Of a stretch of 64,000 bases of DNA, positions 6,009 through 35,674 are shown piece by piece. Position numbers and translations under genes: made by a program. The notes beneath the pieces were generated by a model, which was given only the letters and a program-made list of their open reading frames with translations, was not told the DNA's origin and ran no database searches. Numbering within the stretch: position 1 is the stretch's first letter; each line of letters starts with the position of its first letter. The stretch spans positions 2,356,001 through 2,420,000 of the forward strand of contig NZ_LT670848.1 in NCBI RefSeq assembly GCF_900142975.1, in the 5' to 3' direction. Source of the stretch: Salegentibacter salegens. GTDB taxonomy: Bacteria > Bacteroidota > Bacteroidia > Flavobacteriales > Flavobacteriaceae.

Positions 6009-6755
6009 TTATCCTTTTACACTAGCCGCAAGATATTCACGGTTCATTCGTGCGATATTTTCTAAAGAAATTCCTTTAGGACATTCAATTTCGCAGGCTC
6101 CTGTATTACTACAGTTTCCAAATCCTTCTTCGTCCATTTGTCTAACCATTGCCTGAACACGCTCGGTAGCTTCTACGCGACCTTGCGGAAGTAGAGCATA
6201 TTGAGAAACTTTTGCTGAAGTAAACAGCATAGCACTCGCATTTTTACAAGCAGCTACACAAGCTCCACAACCAATACAGGTTGCCGCGTTAAAAGATTCA
6301 TCGGCTTTTTCTTTTTCAATAGGCATAGTATTGGCGTCTATGGTATTCCCCGAAGTATTTACCGAAACATAGCCCCATGCTTGTTGAATCCTATCAAATG
6401 CGGTACGATCTACAATAAGGTCTTTTATAACCGGAAAAGCTTTCGCTCTAAATGGCTCTATATAAATAGTATCGCCATCTTTAAAAGAACGCATATGCAA
6501 CTGGCAGGTAGCGATTAATTTATCTGGCCCGTGTGGCTCACCGTTAATTTGCAAAGAACAGGAACCACAAATTCCTTCACGACAATCGTGATCAAATTCA
6601 ACAGTGTCTTCTCCTTTTTCTACCAACTGCTCGTTAAGTATATCCAGCATTTCAAGAAAAGACATATCTCCATCAATTCCATCTACAGGATAATCTACCA
6701 TTTTTCCTTTAGCAGTGGCATTTTCCTGACGCCATATTTTTAAGTTAAGCTTCAT
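6009..6755 (-). CDS. sdhB: Succinate dehydrogenase/fumarate reductase iron-sulfur subunit
   Basis: 248 residues. Three Fe-S centres are visible: the [2Fe-2S] ligands in [15 protein letters not shown] with ATCQ, the [4Fe-4S] motif [14 protein letters not shown], and the [3Fe-4S]/[4Fe-4S] closing motif [15 protein letters not shown]. SdhB passes electrons from the flavoprotein SdhA to quinone at SdhC on the inner face of the cytoplasmic membrane. It is the last gene of sdhC-sdhA-sdhB and is separated from sdhA by a 68-bp spacer with a repeat hairpin. A strong terminator follows. Length and motifs are normal for Bacteroidota. Confidence 0.97.
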
Positions 6756-28752: not shown

Positions 28753-30135
28753 TCAATTCCCGCTTACGCGTATGTTATCAATATCATAAGTCGTGCTTTT
28801 ATCTGGGGCAGCCCCTAAATATCTAAAGGCAAAACGAATATCACCTTTTAAACAGGAAATATCTATTTCACTTTTCTCGAAGCGTTTTCCGTATTGATTA
28901 GTAGGGCCAATAGGGATTACAGCGTCTAAAGGAGTCCAGTTTGTGGTTAGTACATTTCCGGTAAATTCTTCAGTAACTAATACACTTAGGATGGTTGCGT
29001 TATCGTAAGAAGACATAATCTCAAAAGATAATAGTGCTCCTGAAGTACTATCTAAATCTATGGATGGACTTACCAGCCAGGCTTCCATAGGTGCTTCTTC
29101 AGTATTAAATGCTGAAACCCTAATATACCGGTTACCATCAAAAGTTCCCGGTTCAAATGCTTTGCCGCCGTTTACATTTAAGTTTGTCCAACCTTTTTCT
29201 TTCAATGCGGTTTGGCTTGTGATTCCAGTAAAGTCTTCTTCAAATATTACGATACTGCCTCTATCATTATTATTTCCGCAGTTTAAAAAGTCGGGATCAC
29301 AACGTTCTCCATCAAAGTTGAAATCGTCTGGAGAATTTACCGCGATCACAAAATAGTCGTCGTAAAAATTACGACTTAAAACGCCTTTTACACTTCCTGA
29401 ATTTTGAGGTAAATACAAAGATTTAAACCCTGAAAAAGTACTGGTGCTTAACATCGCACTGGCGCCGGTACTACAACTCTCCAACTGCCGCTCTCCATCA
29501 TATTCATCGGTAACTTCTCCCGCAAAAGTATAATGATGTTGTTCCCTAAGCAGGTTTCGATTGAACTGGACATTTTTAACTTCAATAAATAAGTTTTCGT
29601 GCCTTTCATTAAATTCTGAAATTTCTAATTGTAGTGGAACAATTTCAGCGGCTTCCATAGTTCTAATTATATGATCGTCTATCCTGGAAGGGGGGATGGC
29701 TACCACGTCTCCCCTATTTCGAACTCCTAATTGGTGCACCCCGTTATTAGACCATAATGCGAGCCCGTCTAACTTCACATAGATTTTTCTACCGAAATTA
29801 TAAGTTTCAAAAAGTGAATTATCATCCACCAGAAGCAATATTCCCGCTGTTGGGTTTTCGGGTTTATCCTGTAACACGAGTTCTTTATAAAAATTTCCGC
29901 CCTCATCGCTGGAGACCACATAGGCCTCCATTAAAGTATTGGTTTCAGAAAAAACATAGATTTCTTCAGTTTCAGGATTAAAATTGCTTTTAACCGCTGA
30001 AATACCCGTAATATCTCCTTCAATATTTATCTCTTGATATTTAGATTCAGGCAGCTGAAAATCTTCAGTTTTCACACAGGAATTTAATACCAAACAGCCT
30101 GAAATTAGGATTAGTAATACGTTGAAATTTTTCAT
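28753..30135 (-). CDS. DUF5689 surface lipoprotein with choice-of-anchor J domain
   Basis: 460 residues from ATG 30135; 56 further upstream codons are open but lie in the 3' end of the receptor gene. The signal peptide MKNFNVLLILISGCLVLNSC ends in a lipidated Cys. A DUF5689 domain (about 30-290; includes EEIYVFSETNTLMEAYVVSSDEGGNFYKELVLQD and an OB-fold-like middle) is followed by a jelly-roll choice-of-anchor J domain (about 300-460; IVIFEEDFTGI, WLVSPSIDLD, FRYLG). DUF5689 resembles nucleic-acid-binding OB folds of YhcR-type nucleases. It starts 10 bp after the TonB-dependent receptor gene, so it is probably that receptor's surface partner. Confidence 0.85.
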   Translation of the reverse strand: MKNFNVLLILISGCLVLNSCVKTEDFQLPESKYQEINIEGDITGISAVKSNFNPETEEIYVFSETNTLMEAYVVSSDEGGNFYKELVLQDKPENPTAGILLLVDDNSLFETYNFGRKIYVKLDGLALWSNNGVHQLGVRNRGDVVAIPPSRIDDHIIRTMEAAEIVPLQLEISEFNERHENLFIEVKNVQFNRNLLREQHHYTFAGEVTDEYDGERQLESCSTGASAMLSTSTFSGFKSLYLPQNSGSVKGVLSRNFYDDYFVIAVNSPDDFNFDGERCDPDFLNCGNNNDRGSIVIFEEDFTGITSQTALKEKGWTNLNVNGGKAFEPGTFDGNRYIRVSAFNTEEAPMEAWLVSPSIDLDSTSGALLSFEIMSSYDNATILSVLVTEEFTGNVLTTNWTPLDAVIPIGPTNQYGKRFEKSEIDISCLKGDIRFAFRYLGAAPDKSTTYDIDNIRVSGN

Positions 30136-30145
30136 TGAGTTTGTT

Positions 30146-32959
30146 TTAAAATCTAACATAAACCATAGCAAAATAGGAAGCTCCGGTGCCATACCAGTAT
30201 TTAGGACCAAAAATGGGGGTTTCCCTCTCTCGATCGTGTTTAAGGGTGCGGTAGTTAGCATTTCGGGACTGTTTAAAACCGCCGGTTTTATAGAGTTTAT
30301 CAAAAATATTATTGAGGCTAATAAAAAAACCGATAAACTTACCTTTTACTAACCAGGACTTACCGCCAATAGCATTTACCAGCATATAATCTTGAAATTG
30401 TTCCTGTTTTAGAAGTTTTGCGGCAGTACTCTCATCATAATCAAGAATAGGCAAGCCATCGGTATCGCTGCGAAAATTTGAAGTTCTGGTCAACGGACTA
30501 ATGTCTAAAAAAGCCTGGGAGAAAAAATTTAGCGTAGTTCCAAACCACCAGTAATCGGGATCTCGATATTCAAACCCAATTTGAGCCGCCCTTTGCGGAC
30601 CACCGGCTATTCGATAATTTTCAAGATAAGAAGTTCCATAATCTACTATCTCGTTAAAATCGTCGGAAGTTAAATAGAGTTCTGGGTTATTGTTATAGGT
30701 GAATTGCCCCAATGCTGCAGCGGCTTTTATTTTTATGGCGGAAGTTAATTGCGCTTCAATTCCCATTTCCACCCCAAGATGTTGTTTATCGATTCCACTT
30801 AAAACCTCCTGAACAAAAGCAGTAGTACTATTTCTACCCAAGCCTGAAAGGCCATCGGCATAATAAAAAGAGATTTCGGTAGCATCTTTAATTTGGGTAT
30901 AATATGCCGAAAACCTGGCTTTAATATTTGAAGACCTATACCGGTAACTTAAATCTACATTTTGAATTTGCTCACTTGTAAGTCCAATTACTACTTCATT
31001 ATTCTGGCGGGAATTAGAAAAGGAATTTCGCAGGTTCGGCGGTTTAGTAAACCAGGCTGCATTAAAACCCAATAAATGTTTTGCGGTTAACTTATAATTT
31101 GCTCCAATTTTTCCTCCAAAATCGGTGAAATTTAATTGCTCGCTTTTCCCGAGAGAGTTATCGAGATAATTTCCATTTTGAAATAATCCGTCTCTATGAT
31201 AAGCCGTTTGAGAAGCAGTAATTCCGGAATAAAAATCAAGTCTGTCGTAATCGAAATTCACCTGGCCAAAAGTTTTGATGGTGTTGGCATATAGCCGAAA
31301 ATTATATTTGTAAGGCTCATTTTCTGAAACACTTCTATTTGGATTTCGCAAATCACTCTGCGCTCTTTGTTCCAGGGAAGTTTCCTCATCGCCTTCAGCA
31401 AAAAAATCGATATCGAGATAAGTATTTCCTCCCAGCATATCTTTAATGGAAGCAAAATTATGAGAGTTTAAATAGGAAAATGCCAACTTTCCATCCAGAT
31501 CTATATTGTCATTAATTTTGGCTGAAACGATGGAATTCAAATCAAATTTGAGGTCGTCGTTGCGGTCTTCGGCTAAGGCATAAACCGTATAGCCCGCTGC
31601 ATTATTAGCATTGTATAGCTGCTGCCAGTTTAATTGCCCCTTTTCTTTGAAATCCTGTTGGGCGAGATAAGCCGCTTCATAATTTGGATTGTCTGCAAAG
31701 CGCAAATAATAGCTGGGTAGTTTTTGATAGTAGGTTGGATCTGGATTCGTGCCACCACCCACATAACTATTCTGATCATTAATTTCAGCCATTCGGGTTC
31801 CTCCGAAATCAATCCTGGAATTTCCTGTTTTTCCAAATTGAAAAGCGAAATTATTACTAATACTTACTTTTTCTGAAAACTTCCAAAAGTGATTCAGCAT
31901 TAATATTGGTTCTTTAATCTCCCTTATTCGGGAATTTCTCAATTTCCCATCCTGATAGCCCCAATAAGCATTGTATTTTCTTCCTTTTAACTCAAAGACT
32001 TCCGCCGTATTTGGAGATGATTTTCCGCGGATATTTGGCGTATAAAAGCCGGTAAAGTTTAGACTATGCTTTTCACTAAAGGTTTTTTCAACAGAAAGAA
32101 AAAATCCATTTGCATCGTATAAAGTGCCTTCCACATAGGCCTCTTTCGCAAACCTTCGGGAAGCTGAAATTGCATAAGCCCAACCATTATTTAATTCCCC
32201 GGAACCATAAGTGGCCATTAACCGGCCGTTATAACTTCGGTTGGCGGCGGCAATAGATGCCTTTCCTCCTTTAGCATATTTTGAAGCGCGCATAATGATA
32301 TTTGTAGTGCCCGCCAAACCTCCAAAACTAACCTGAGACGGACTTAAACCCATAGAGAAAACCTGGTTTCGCTGCACATCGTTTAGCCCGCCCCAGGCAC
32401 TCCATTGCGGCCGGCCGGTATAAGTTTTATTCATTTCTACACCGTTAATCAAAACCTTTCCATGTTCGCTGTCTAGCCCCCGTGGTCTAAAGAACGTCTG
32501 ACTAAAATCGAAAGCAGCGGCGTTAAGAAAAACATCACGCGAGGCCTGCAGAAGGCCAGAAAGATTATCAATATGCGCTTCATCATCATCCAGTTCAGCA
32601 TCTGAAAGGCTAATGGTGCTTATTTGGTTCGCATATTCTGTTAAAATAGGTTGCATAAGAATCAACCCGAGATCTTTGTTGGTTTTGGCTTCAATAACTA
32701 CCGGAAGCCTGAGTTCTTTATAATTGGGAAGGGAAATTTTTAAAACCTGTTCTCCCAGCGGAAGCTCTTCTAAAGTAAAAATGAAATCACCGTTTTCATT
32801 AGAAATTGTTTCAAAAACGCTTCCTTCAATAAGCAATTTAGCCCCGGATAATTCTTTATAGGTTTGGGCATCTACCAATTTTCCACTCAGGGAAATTTCC
32901 TGGGCAAATGAGGCTGAGAATTCCAGTCCCACAACGAGAAGAAAAAAGAAAAATTTCAT
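30146..32959 (-). CDS. TonB-dependent outer-membrane receptor
   Basis: 937 residues. Signal peptide 1-19, CarboxypepD_reg-like domain about 21-105 (ISLSGKLVDAQTYKELSGAKLLIEG), plug domain about 125-235 (LNAAAFDFSQTFFRPRGLDSEHGKVLINGVEM), then a long beta-barrel ending in the aromatic YFAMVYVRF. It imports a ligand across the outer membrane using TonB energy. It is transcribed with the DUF5689 lipoprotein and divergent, with a 99-bp shared promoter region, from the secreted phosphodiesterase-fold gene disrupted by an IS. The ligand is not readable; nucleic-acid fragments are my inference from the neighbours. Confidence 0.92.
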   Translation of the reverse strand: MKFFFFLLVVGLEFSASFAQEISLSGKLVDAQTYKELSGAKLLIEGSVFETISNENGDFIFTLEELPLGEQVLKISLPNYKELRLPVVIEAKTNKDLGLILMQPILTEYANQISTISLSDAELDDDEAHIDNLSGLLQASRDVFLNAAAFDFSQTFFRPRGLDSEHGKVLINGVEMNKTYTGRPQWSAWGGLNDVQRNQVFSMGLSPSQVSFGGLAGTTNIIMRASKYAKGGKASIAAANRSYNGRLMATYGSGELNNGWAYAISASRRFAKEAYVEGTLYDANGFFLSVEKTFSEKHSLNFTGFYTPNIRGKSSPNTAEVFELKGRKYNAYWGYQDGKLRNSRIREIKEPILMLNHFWKFSEKVSISNNFAFQFGKTGNSRIDFGGTRMAEINDQNSYVGGGTNPDPTYYQKLPSYYLRFADNPNYEAAYLAQQDFKEKGQLNWQQLYNANNAAGYTVYALAEDRNDDLKFDLNSIVSAKINDNIDLDGKLAFSYLNSHNFASIKDMLGGNTYLDIDFFAEGDEETSLEQRAQSDLRNPNRSVSENEPYKYNFRLYANTIKTFGQVNFDYDRLDFYSGITASQTAYHRDGLFQNGNYLDNSLGKSEQLNFTDFGGKIGANYKLTAKHLLGFNAAWFTKPPNLRNSFSNSRQNNEVVIGLTSEQIQNVDLSYRYRSSNIKARFSAYYTQIKDATEISFYYADGLSGLGRNSTTAFVQEVLSGIDKQHLGVEMGIEAQLTSAIKIKAAAALGQFTYNNNPELYLTSDDFNEIVDYGTSYLENYRIAGGPQRAAQIGFEYRDPDYWWFGTTLNFFSQAFLDISPLTRTSNFRSDTDGLPILDYDESTAAKLLKQEQFQDYMLVNAIGGKSWLVKGKFIGFFISLNNIFDKLYKTGGFKQSRNANYRTLKHDRERETPIFGPKYWYGTGASYFAMVYVRF

Positions 32960-33698
32960 CGAGTTTTATTTCCATATTTATTATAAGTTTAGATAAATTA
33001 GCTATAAGAAGCAAATAATCAGTATTTTATGTGAATATTTTAAAGAATTTGTAAGATTATGATTACCCGTATTTTTCCCTTTTTATGCGTTTATCTTTTA
33101 TTTCTGTTGAGTACTGAAAGTGTTTTCTCACAGGTAAAAAAAGAATATAAAATTGTGAGTATTGCATTTTATAATGTTGAGAATCTATTTGACACAGAAA
33201 ATAATCCGTTCACTTTTGATGACGATCGTACGCCTGAAGGAGACGATGTCTGGACCCAGGAAAAATACCGCGATAAACTGCAAAAACTGGCTGGAGTTAT
33301 TGCTGAAATAGGTTCTGAAACCACACAACAACCTCCTGCAATTGTAGGTGTTTGTGAAATTGAAAACCGGAAGGTATTAGAAGATCTAATAAATGAACCC
33401 AAACTGAAACCATACAACTACGGTATAGTGCATTATGACTCTCCCGATCGCCGTGGTATTGATGTGGCCTTATTATATAGAAAAGATGTTTTTAGACTGG
33501 AAAACTCGGTTTCTCACGAGTTATTGATTTATAACAGTAAAGAACCCGATAAGCGTGTTTACACCCGAGATCAATTGGTAGTGAGTGGAGAAATAGATGG
33601 AGAGAAACTTCATTTTATTATTAACCATTGGCCATCCAGGAGTGGCGGTGAAGCAGCCAGCAGCTATAAAAGAGAAAAAGCAGCAACCCTTAATAAAA

Positions 33699-34747
33699 GG
33701 CTAAGTTCTAATTAGCATATTGAATAGTTGTTGTTTGTACTCGTACCATGCGCTATTTGAAGCAAAGGCAATGGCTGTAACTGTTGCCATTTTACTGGTT
33801 GAGTTCTTGATTTTTTCAAGTACCAAGAACCAATTCAAGTAATTCTGTAAGTATTTTGTAGCTACCCCATTGAAAGAATCCATGAACTTTCTCAATCTCA
33901 TATCCATATTGTTTACATTCTGGACATGGTACACCTTATCTACGGTTCGCTGTCCCTTTGAGGTGTTGAACTTTTTATGGGCAATTGTGTTGGCTTTTGC
34001 AAAAGCACCATAACTTCTATGGCTGTCGCTGCAGAGTACGTCAGCTTTATCAAGTTTCCCTTTAAGTATTCTATTCAGATCCTCTTTACTGATACGACCT
34101 CTTGTGGCCACTTTAAAGTCTTTGTTTCCAGATCTATCACAAGTTGCCACTACAGCTACTTTTTCATCACTTATGCCTGCTTTGCTTGCTTTTTCTCCTC
34201 GCATTTTCGGTTTTCTACCTAAATGACGTCCTCCTTTTTCTGAGTAGGCAAAGAACAGGTCATCGCTTTCGACTATGCCCTGAAACTCTTCTACCGAAAC
34301 ACTGGAAAATGACGTGAGCAATTTATGTCTCCAATCAAAGGACGTTTGAATTGATATCTCCGTCTCTTCTGCACTTTTCCTGATACTGTAGCCCGACAAC
34401 AAACAGTATAAATACCGATTTAACTTCTCTTTCTTTTTTATATTATACCAAAACTTACCTGTGGTCTCACTGAAATTCTTCTTACAGCCATTGCAAACAT
34501 AGCGTTGAACGCCTTTGAGCTTGCCATTGGCACGAACACGCTTTTCTGAGCAATGAGGACAGGTAACTGCTTTTGCCTCGTTGCTGTCCTTTACTTCACT
34601 TTCTTGCAAAGACAATGATAGCAACGAAGCCACTATCTCTTGTTGAACAGTCGCTGGACTATTAACGAAAAAATCCCTGAAATCTGAAGGTATCATATCT
34701 ATATAGTTTTACACAAATATAAGACATATTCATCTTAGAACAAAGCT
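33699..34747 (-). mobile_element. IS1595-family insertion sequence, 1049 bp
   Basis: The ends are GGCTAAGTTCTAA (33699-33711) and TTAGAACAAAGCT (34735-34747), imperfect inverted repeats that match at 10 of 13 positions. An 8-bp direct duplication TAATAAAA flanks it (33691-33698 and 34748-34755). Size and 8-bp duplication fit IS1595. It contains one transposase gene on the minus strand, whose stop codon lies in the left inverted repeat. The exact duplication and full-length transposase indicate a recent insertion. Confidence 0.93.
33701..34696 (-). CDS. IS1595-family (ISXO2-like) transposase
   Basis: 331 residues. An N-terminal zinc ribbon (CPHCSEKRVRANGKLKGV, then CNGCKKNF) is followed by a helix-turn-helix and the ISXO2-like DDE-type nuclease: Asp in GIVESDDLFFAYSEKGGRHLG, Asp in DVLCSDSHRSYGAF, and the Asn-containing third motif in YHVQNVNNMDMRLRKFMDSFNGVATKYLQNYLNWF. 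The length is normal and the frame is intact, so the enzyme may be active. The stop codon TAG (33701-33703) is part of the IS end. Confidence 0.93.
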   Translation of the reverse strand: MIPSDFRDFFVNSPATVQQEIVASLLSLSLQESEVKDSNEAKAVTCPHCSEKRVRANGKLKGVQRYVCNGCKKNFSETTGKFWYNIKKKEKLNRYLYCLLSGYSIRKSAEETEISIQTSFDWRHKLLTSFSSVSVEEFQGIVESDDLFFAYSEKGGRHLGRKPKMRGEKASKAGISDEKVAVVATCDRSGNKDFKVATRGRISKEDLNRILKGKLDKADVLCSDSHRSYGAFAKANTIAHKKFNTSKGQRTVDKVYHVQNVNNMDMRLRKFMDSFNGVATKYLQNYLNWFLVLEKIKNSTSKMATVTAIAFASNSAWYEYKQQLFNMLIRT

Positions 34748-35236
34748 TAATAAAACTATCCTGGATTCTATATTTAAACGTGAACCTTTAGCCAGGGTAA
34801 TAAGTATGGGAGATTTTAATGACGATCCTATCAACAGAAGTTTCAAAGAGATACTAAAAACAGCCGCAAATCTAAAGGATCTAAATCCGCATCAATTATA
34901 TAATCCTATGGAGCGTATGTTGAAAAAAGGAATGGGTACACTGGCGTATCGTGATGGCTGGAATTTATTTGATCAAATCCTGGTTTCAGGAATTTTAACT
35001 GGGAAAGATTATTCCAGGTTTCAATTTTATAAAGCAGGAATCTTTAATAAGAAATACCTCATCACTGAAGACGGCCAATATAAAGGTTATCCTTTCCGAA
35101 GTTATGGTTATTCGGGTTACCAGGGTGGCTACAGTGACCATTTTCCGGTATATATTTACCTGGTCAAGGAAGTCTCTTTAAACTCCCACGATGCCGGAGA
35201 GTAAAACCATCAAAATTTAAATTTATTACGCCTTTT

Positions 35237-35674
35237 TTAGAACCAGGCGTTCCAAGGTATACGAGATAACATAACTAATAAACCAAGGGTATAAAATATA
35301 GCAAGGATTTTAAATTTTGGTTTTGAAGTAAGTTTACTCTTATGTTTTGAATAGCCAATAGTAATTAGAGCTAGAGCAATAATCATCATTAGTGGATGTT
35401 CCAGAATGTAAAGCCTTAGTGTTGGATCTGGCATTACTGTACCCATTCCTTCTTCCAGAAGTACCGAAAAATAAGGAGATACAAAATATAAAACAATTCC
35501 TATTAAAAGCTGAATGTGCGAGGTGATAAGTGTGAAAAGTGCAATCCTAAAATTAGTCGCTCCATATTCTTTATTAGAAGCATAACCAATAATTGAATTT
35601 ATAGAGGCCACGAATAAAACTATTAATACTAAATAAGCCCAATAAGAATGTATGAATTGTATAGTTGGATACAT
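35237..35674 (-). CDS. Conserved four-helix membrane protein
   Basis: 145 residues with four predicted membrane helices (about 10-30, 43-67, 88-108, 122-140). The sequence IQFIHSYWAYLVLIVLFVASINSIIGY and a His-containing second helix (TSHIQLLIGIVLYFVSP) are typical of a Bacteroidota family sometimes mislabelled as ribosomal protein L27 or cytochrome b. His residues in three helices could bind haem, but that is speculation. It converges with the 3' end of the interrupted nuclease gene. Confidence 0.7.
   Translation of the reverse strand: MYPTIQFIHSYWAYLVLIVLFVASINSIIGYASNKEYGATNFRIALFTLITSHIQLLIGIVLYFVSPYFSVLLEEGMGTVMPDPTLRLYILEHPLMMIIALALITIGYSKHKSKLTSKPKFKILAIFYTLGLLVMLSRIPWNAWF

Follow-up and report, generated by a model that had tools for sequence, protein, structure and literature searches.

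What did Salegentibacter salegens lose when a mobile element landed in one of its genes for exported enzymes? The question is raised by a 64,000-nucleotide (nt) stretch of its genome (contig NZ_LT670848.1, positions 2,356,001 to 2,420,000 of the forward strand), here called the window, in which an insertion sequence (IS) of the IS1595 family splits a gene for an EEP-fold protein of Pfam family PF19580, beside genes for a TonB-dependent-receptor-like protein and a DUF5689 lipoprotein. We consider it probable that the gene belongs to a DNA-uptake locus and that the insertion is the first lesion to knock out natural transformation in its lineage.

The 5' part of the split gene (33059..33698, plus strand) encodes a signal peptide, the first metal-site residues and an NHWPSR motif in 213 codons plus one base, and matches columns 1-173 of the PF19580 profile with 240 bits in a Pfam profile search. 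The 3' part (34756..35204, plus strand) contains the GDFND and SDH motifs, ends with a stop codon at 35202-35204 and matches columns 175-311 with 144 bits. The single profile column that is absent between the two matches is explained by the split codon, and, since the IS splits the gene, the full profile is not found in one open frame in this genome. A first-pass annotation of the window had calculated a joined coding length of 1089 nt with neither stop nor frameshift in either half, and we arrive at the same result: the two parts, of 640 and 449 nt, add up to 363 codons with the stop, and both are stop-free, each in a single frame.

The two halves were compared separately, and not as a joined protein, to the best 80 of 119 loci from relatives, to which all counts anchored on the EEP gene refer. 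In 80/80 of these loci the halves form one continuous gene, in frame and with exactly one codon between them, and the aligned stretch is stop-free in 78 (the stops are in L040 and L076). This rules out that the halves are two separate genes, which the annotation had named as a reason to abandon its reading. An intact paralogue, with the present copy as an old relic, was the other such reason, and no second PF19580 gene that might serve as a paralogue or back-up was identified in the genome; nine PF03372 matches along the contig, of which one falls on a duplicated contig tip, indicate that other EEP-type enzymes remain. Identity of the 5' half to the 80 relatives ranges from 49 to 89%, the closest named relatives being four Salegentibacter species (84-89%), followed by the next genus at 65%, and the EEP gene is of full length in nine genomes of the same genus.

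Invariant residues were taken from the 70 of the 80 loci that have a complete, ATG-started open reading frame (ORF) of 320-400 amino acids (aa), and include N38, E40, E99, E101, N188 and H189 in the 5' half and D232, N234, D340 and H341 in the 3' half (numbering of L032). The metal- and phosphate-site residues in this set are all present across the two halves together, never within one, in agreement with the motif order reported previously, with the metal-binding Glu region in the 5' half and GDFND and SDH in the 3' half. As the active-site residues are divided, neither half should be able to form an active site, and the function of the gene has almost certainly been lost. The enzyme is predicted from its N-terminal signal to be exported; the term "secreted" used for it earlier does not imply that it leaves the periplasm.

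The element itself covers positions 33699..34747 (1049 base pairs (bp), no strand assigned) and encodes a transposase of 331 aa (33701..34696, minus strand), the stop codon of which lies inside the terminal repeat. The transposase scores 168 bits against NCBIfam NF033547 (transpos_IS1595; cut-off 75) and 37.9 bits against Pfam PF12762 (cut-off 27). The IS ends are imperfect inverted repeats, with 15 of the first 25 bases matching, and are flanked by the 8-bp sequence TAATAAAA at 33691..33698 on the left and by an exact match to it at 34748..34755 on the right, so that the previously given coordinates and duplication are correct to the base. Target duplications of 8 bp are typical of the IS1595 family.

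A search of the genome for further copies, as the annotation had proposed, identified 22 copies in the contig, all identical over 1049 bp. Because the copy at contig position 6662 sits on the duplicated tip, the true number is more probably 21 than 22. An exact 8-bp duplication, the third trait shared with IS1595-family elements besides the NF033547 match and the imperfect terminal repeats, flanks 19 of the 22 copies, at 18 different sites, and one of the three exceptions is a hybrid copy within a tandem duplication. The duplications are A+T-rich (88% in the 18 duplications as compared to 63% in the window). The IS gave no match in any of 14 same-genus genomes; its best outside match among 397 genomes of the family was 82% over 827 bases, and no near match to a donor was found among plasmids, where all 118 records showed less than 60% protein identity.

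The identity of the copies and the intact duplications support a recent insertion, and with it a recent loss of EEP function, and speak against an old one. The description of a fresh IS1595-family insertion into one previously intact gene for an exported EEP-fold protein is thus upheld, and the annotation read the sequence correctly wherever it could be checked, but nothing that could be measured here lends support to the further suggestion of a reversible or polymorphic loss. Excision without a footprint between 8-bp repeats that are 1 kb apart is normally rare. Ratios of nonsynonymous to synonymous substitutions (dN/dS) were 0.04-0.10 for both halves against six relatives with an intact EEP gene, with the intact receptor and lipoprotein genes in the same range, and 0.21-0.32 and 0.05-0.10 for the remnants of the EEP locus in two other Salegentibacter genomes, G009 and G004, respectively. 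This measure is weak and cannot date the insertion: dS is almost saturated, and the values of the G004 remnants resemble those of working genes.

The annotation missed that the split gene is part of a conserved locus, and that this locus has been lost, along with dprA and comEC, in four of 13 relatives. Divergently from the EEP gene lies an intact gene for a TonB-dependent-receptor-like outer-membrane protein (30146..32959, minus strand, 937 aa; CarbopepD_reg_2 37.6 bits, Plug 20.9 bits, under its cut-off of 23.9), next to an intact gene for a DUF5689/choice-of-anchor-J lipoprotein (28753..30126, minus strand, 457 aa; PF18942 175 bits, NF038128 73 bits, NF052645 235 bits, under its cut-off of 475). 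This adjacency of receptor and DUF5689 lipoprotein fits a Bacteroidota TonB-type natural-transformation locus. Both genes were recovered in 56 of the 69 EEP-anchored loci with at least 5.5 kb of upstream sequence. In the reverse direction, 60 of 196 genomes of the order were positive for the receptor at E 1e-40, of which 58 also contain the lipoprotein, and the EEP gene is divergently adjacent in 44 of 59 testable receptor loci, the window's own included. The receptor and lipoprotein searches were made with the window's own sequences and may miss distant homologs. Among the 15 receptor loci without an adjacent EEP gene, 13 are from the genus g146, in 12 of which the EEP position is taken by an ORF that appears membrane-transporter-like from its sequence.

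Deleting RA0C_RS04915 or RS04920 is reported to reduce transformation of Riemerella anatipestifer ATCC 11845 to below detection, as are insertions in comEC or dprA (PMC8459023), and tonBA and tonBB mutants are reported to be impaired in transformation (PMC8383284). RA0C_RS04915 is described as a predicted outer-membrane protein with a carboxypeptidase-regulatory domain and RS04920 as a DUF5689, anchor-J protein, with homologs widespread in the Flavobacteriaceae (PMC8459023). The order of a receptor-type outer-membrane protein followed by a DUF5689/anchor-J lipoprotein, likewise in the Flavobacteriales, is thus shared with the window, whereas the excerpts available from that report name no EEP gene, the gene on the upstream side being RS04910 (PMC8459023). 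We therefore take the window receptor to be the counterpart of RA0C_RS04915 by architecture and position, and the lipoprotein to be the counterpart of RA0C_RS04920 by domains, a match made on domains, gene order, family distribution and position rather than by alignment with the Riemerella sequences. That the receptor, lipoprotein, DprA, ComEC and TonB would be needed in S. salegens as well is carried over from the Riemerella literature. Elsewhere in the genome, ComEC (681 aa) and DprA (366 aa) are intact and DUF1343 (PF07075) is present; the check covered these three members of an uptake set that also includes ComF, RecA and the helix-hairpin-helix protein.

We compared the syntenic site in 13 Salegentibacter relatives by way of a conserved neighbour gene (35237..35674, minus strand, 145 aa), which lies outside the uptake system, is present in 14 of 15 genomes of the genus and has no match in Pfam or NCBIfam at E 1e-3. 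The window's own genome was left out of this count, as was G008, a 61% complete genome in which EEP, the anchor gene, ComEC and DprA all went unmatched. In nine relatives (G001, G002, G003, G005, G006, G011-G014) the EEP gene is intact, and all nine have intact dprA and comEC genes. In the other four it has been destroyed, by different lesions: a single deletion in G004 has taken the 5' half of the EEP gene and the first 673 residues of the receptor, just scraps of the EEP and lipoprotein genes are left in G009 and G010, and the whole EEP/receptor/lipoprotein locus is cleanly gone from G007, in which the flanking genes are about 160 bp apart (L200:4870-5031). For dprA, these four genomes show an internal stop in G004, fragments in G009, a frameshift in G010 and no match in G007; for comEC, they show a frameshift in G004 and G010, fragments in G009 and again no match in G007.

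The genes that flank dprA are kept at 70-98% identity in G004, G009 and G010, the genomes covered by this check, which indicates local decay and not missing sequence; in G004 and G009 the decayed gene (68.6% identity, or in pieces; L239, L241) is flanked by genes that share 96-98% identity with their counterparts in the window's genome. The states of the EEP gene and dprA are associated across the 13 relatives (9/0/0/4, Fisher p 0.0014), and if the window's genome is counted as EEP-broken with an intact dprA, the chance, calculated by hand, is 5/1001. The four EEP-broken genomes do not form one clade in trees from rpoB or a four-gene alignment, in which several inner supports are 0.67-0.98. 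In the window's genome the receptor, lipoprotein, dprA and comEC genes are intact and the EEP gene alone has been hit, and it looks like the earliest stage of loss.

The deletion breakpoint in G004 falls in the same 8-bp site as the target of the IS (L149:1911-1922). A role of this IS in the deletion was dropped as an explanation, IS DNA being absent both from G004 and from the junction; the overlap may be a coincidence or may reflect a fragile A+T-rich site.

Some observations weigh against a transformation knock-out. The receptor gene is frameshifted in G002 and contains an in-frame stop in G001, though EEP, dprA and comEC are intact in both, and when these lesions are counted as broken loci the association weakens to p = 0.021. 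DUF1343/NamZ, which was necessary in the Riemerella screen, is kept in 15/15 genomes and may have another main role. Furthermore, the EEP and receptor genes were hit as neighbours in the four losses, and the co-loss therefore speaks for the locus and not for the EEP gene alone; the separate support for the EEP gene is its conserved adjacency and its plausibility.

With these points considered, the sequence of events that we favour is as follows. A newly acquired IS1595-family element would have multiplied to about 21 identical copies, one of which landed in the sole PF19580 gene and inactivated the EEP enzyme. The DUF5689 surface lipoprotein and the TonB-dependent receptor would carry double-stranded DNA across the outer membrane, where the exported EEP enzyme would most likely cut or strip the incoming DNA, one strand of which ComEC would then pass inward. 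On this view, the insertion would be the first transformation knock-out in the lineage, with the rest of the set that was tested (receptor, lipoprotein, comEC and dprA) still intact.

That the EEP enzyme is required for DNA uptake seems likely to us; that its step is the processing of DNA is plausible, but held with somewhat less than even confidence. The excerpts available from the Riemerella model leave the conversion of double- to single-stranded DNA open (PMC8459023). No recognisable nuclease domain was found in the ComEC of the window's genome, which makes the EEP enzyme a candidate for the missing DNA-processing nuclease. A profile and a model of the EEP protein were built from the 70 loci, and a sequence search of the PDB with the profile gave no matches at E 1e-3. 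Against the ExeM/NucH family NF033681 (cut-off 300), the 5' half scored 28 bits and the intact relative from S. holothuriorum 26 bits. The fold was rejected as proof of DNase activity, since the structural matches include phosphatases. More tentatively still, the PF19580 enzyme may be the nuclease of Bacteroidota DNA uptake, which replaces the absent domain of ComEC by making single-stranded DNA from what the receptor delivers, in which case the IS would be a natural knock-out caught before the decay seen in the four sister genomes.

The same genes might instead form a locus for scavenging phosphorus or nucleotides, with the EEP enzyme and the receptor exploiting extracellular DNA or phosphoesters as nutrients; an ordinary IS hit there would be unrelated to transformation. 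Phosphatases occur among the EEP enzymes, the tied structural matches contain a sugar phosphatase from Bacteroides, and no receptor and lipoprotein were detected near the EEP gene in 13 of the 69 loci. The usual task of TonB receptors is the import of nutrients. Against this, the locus decays in 4/4 genomes together with dprA and comEC, which are located elsewhere on the chromosome, and deletion of the Riemerella receptor or lipoprotein gene is reported to abolish transformation (PMC8459023). We regard scavenging alone as unlikely, and one machine could serve both scavenging and uptake.

If uptake is what was lost, the insertion may have been selected rather than a matter of chance, because loss of uptake would shield a multiplying IS from replacement by DNA with an empty site, an intragenomic conflict. 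Mobile elements are reported to disrupt competence genes repeatedly, among them comYC, comFA, comK, comM and comEC (PMC4774983; PMC12955456), and transformability is reported to be negatively associated with mobile elements (PMC11472951). Genomes are also larger in the four relatives that lack the locus (4.2-4.7 as compared to 3.3-4.2 Mb, rounded; Mann-Whitney p = 0.008, kinship uncorrected). However, the one hit has a chance of about 5% (calculated by hand and after the fact), given about 20 sites and uptake genes that make up about 10 kb of 4 Mb; the preference of the element is for A+T-rich 8-mers and not for a named gene; and in the four relatives, where this IS was not found, the locus disappeared through deletion. 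Whether the IS profits from the knock-out cannot be judged from a single insertion, and we consider selection for it improbable. A misjoin that placed the 22-fold repeated IS in the EEP gene is next to inconceivable, even in a contig with an untrimmed end overlap and a duplicated tip, because the exact 8-bp duplication and the synteny of both halves with intact neighbours show a real insertion.

Mobile elements in competence genes are thus already known, and the S. salegens insertion adds a likely case from a Bacteroidota TonB-type system, with a candidate new component. As in the published cases (PMC4774983; PMC12955456), a mobile element splits one gene of an uptake set and the other tested genes are intact; the difference is that the target lies in a Bacteroidota TonB-type locus and is itself a putative uptake gene. 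The enzyme resembles pneumococcal EndA, considered together with the metallo-beta-lactamase domain of ComEC, in its proposed job as an exported nuclease that would act on incoming DNA before ComEC, but it is a different protein with an EEP fold (PF19580); the available parts of the same source describe as an open question how the second strand is handled where ComEC lacks a nuclease domain (PMC8579336). A conserved exported gene with a DNase fold, located beside the receptor and decaying with dprA and comEC, provides one named candidate for the conversion of double- to single-stranded DNA. Genomes of the genus range from an intact locus through a hit in one gene and a partial deletion to complete absence, a natural series in which the loss of transformation, and any profit to mobile elements, can be studied. 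No link between this EEP family and transformation was found in the titles or abstract openings listed by searches of the open-access literature, a scope that leaves out subscription papers and preprints.

The genome is represented by a single contig of 4.01 Mb, the end of which is untrimmed and partly chimeric. The contig ends overlap by 13.3 kb (L123 with L137 as compared to L136), and the contig start (L123:1-15753) repeats positions 230423-246189 (L124:2424-18189) at 99.85% with 22-23 small gaps. An Rfam scan of the window gave no matches.

Other copies of the IS lie at sites of possible rearrangement or within further ORFs. Three copies bound two identical tandem units of 8493 bp (contig 1887092-1905126; L121:9093-20000 and L122:1-10127), which an assembly loop could also mimic and which carry genes for Wzi, Wzc-like and Wza-like polysaccharide-export proteins and a universal stress protein. 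The flanks of the middle copy are hybrid, as unequal crossing-over between two IS copies would make them. Another copy (L029:2611-3659) has no target duplication, with flanks ATTAAAAA and TTTCTACA, and may have arisen when the segment between two IS copies was deleted. A mechanically called ORF of at least 60 aa crosses the edge of the IS at 11 of the 22 copies, and the copies at L013, L025, L026, L027 and L028 interrupt ORFs with matches to a SusD-like protein, a DUF3492 glycosyltransferase, a PfkB kinase, a TonB-receptor and GH130.
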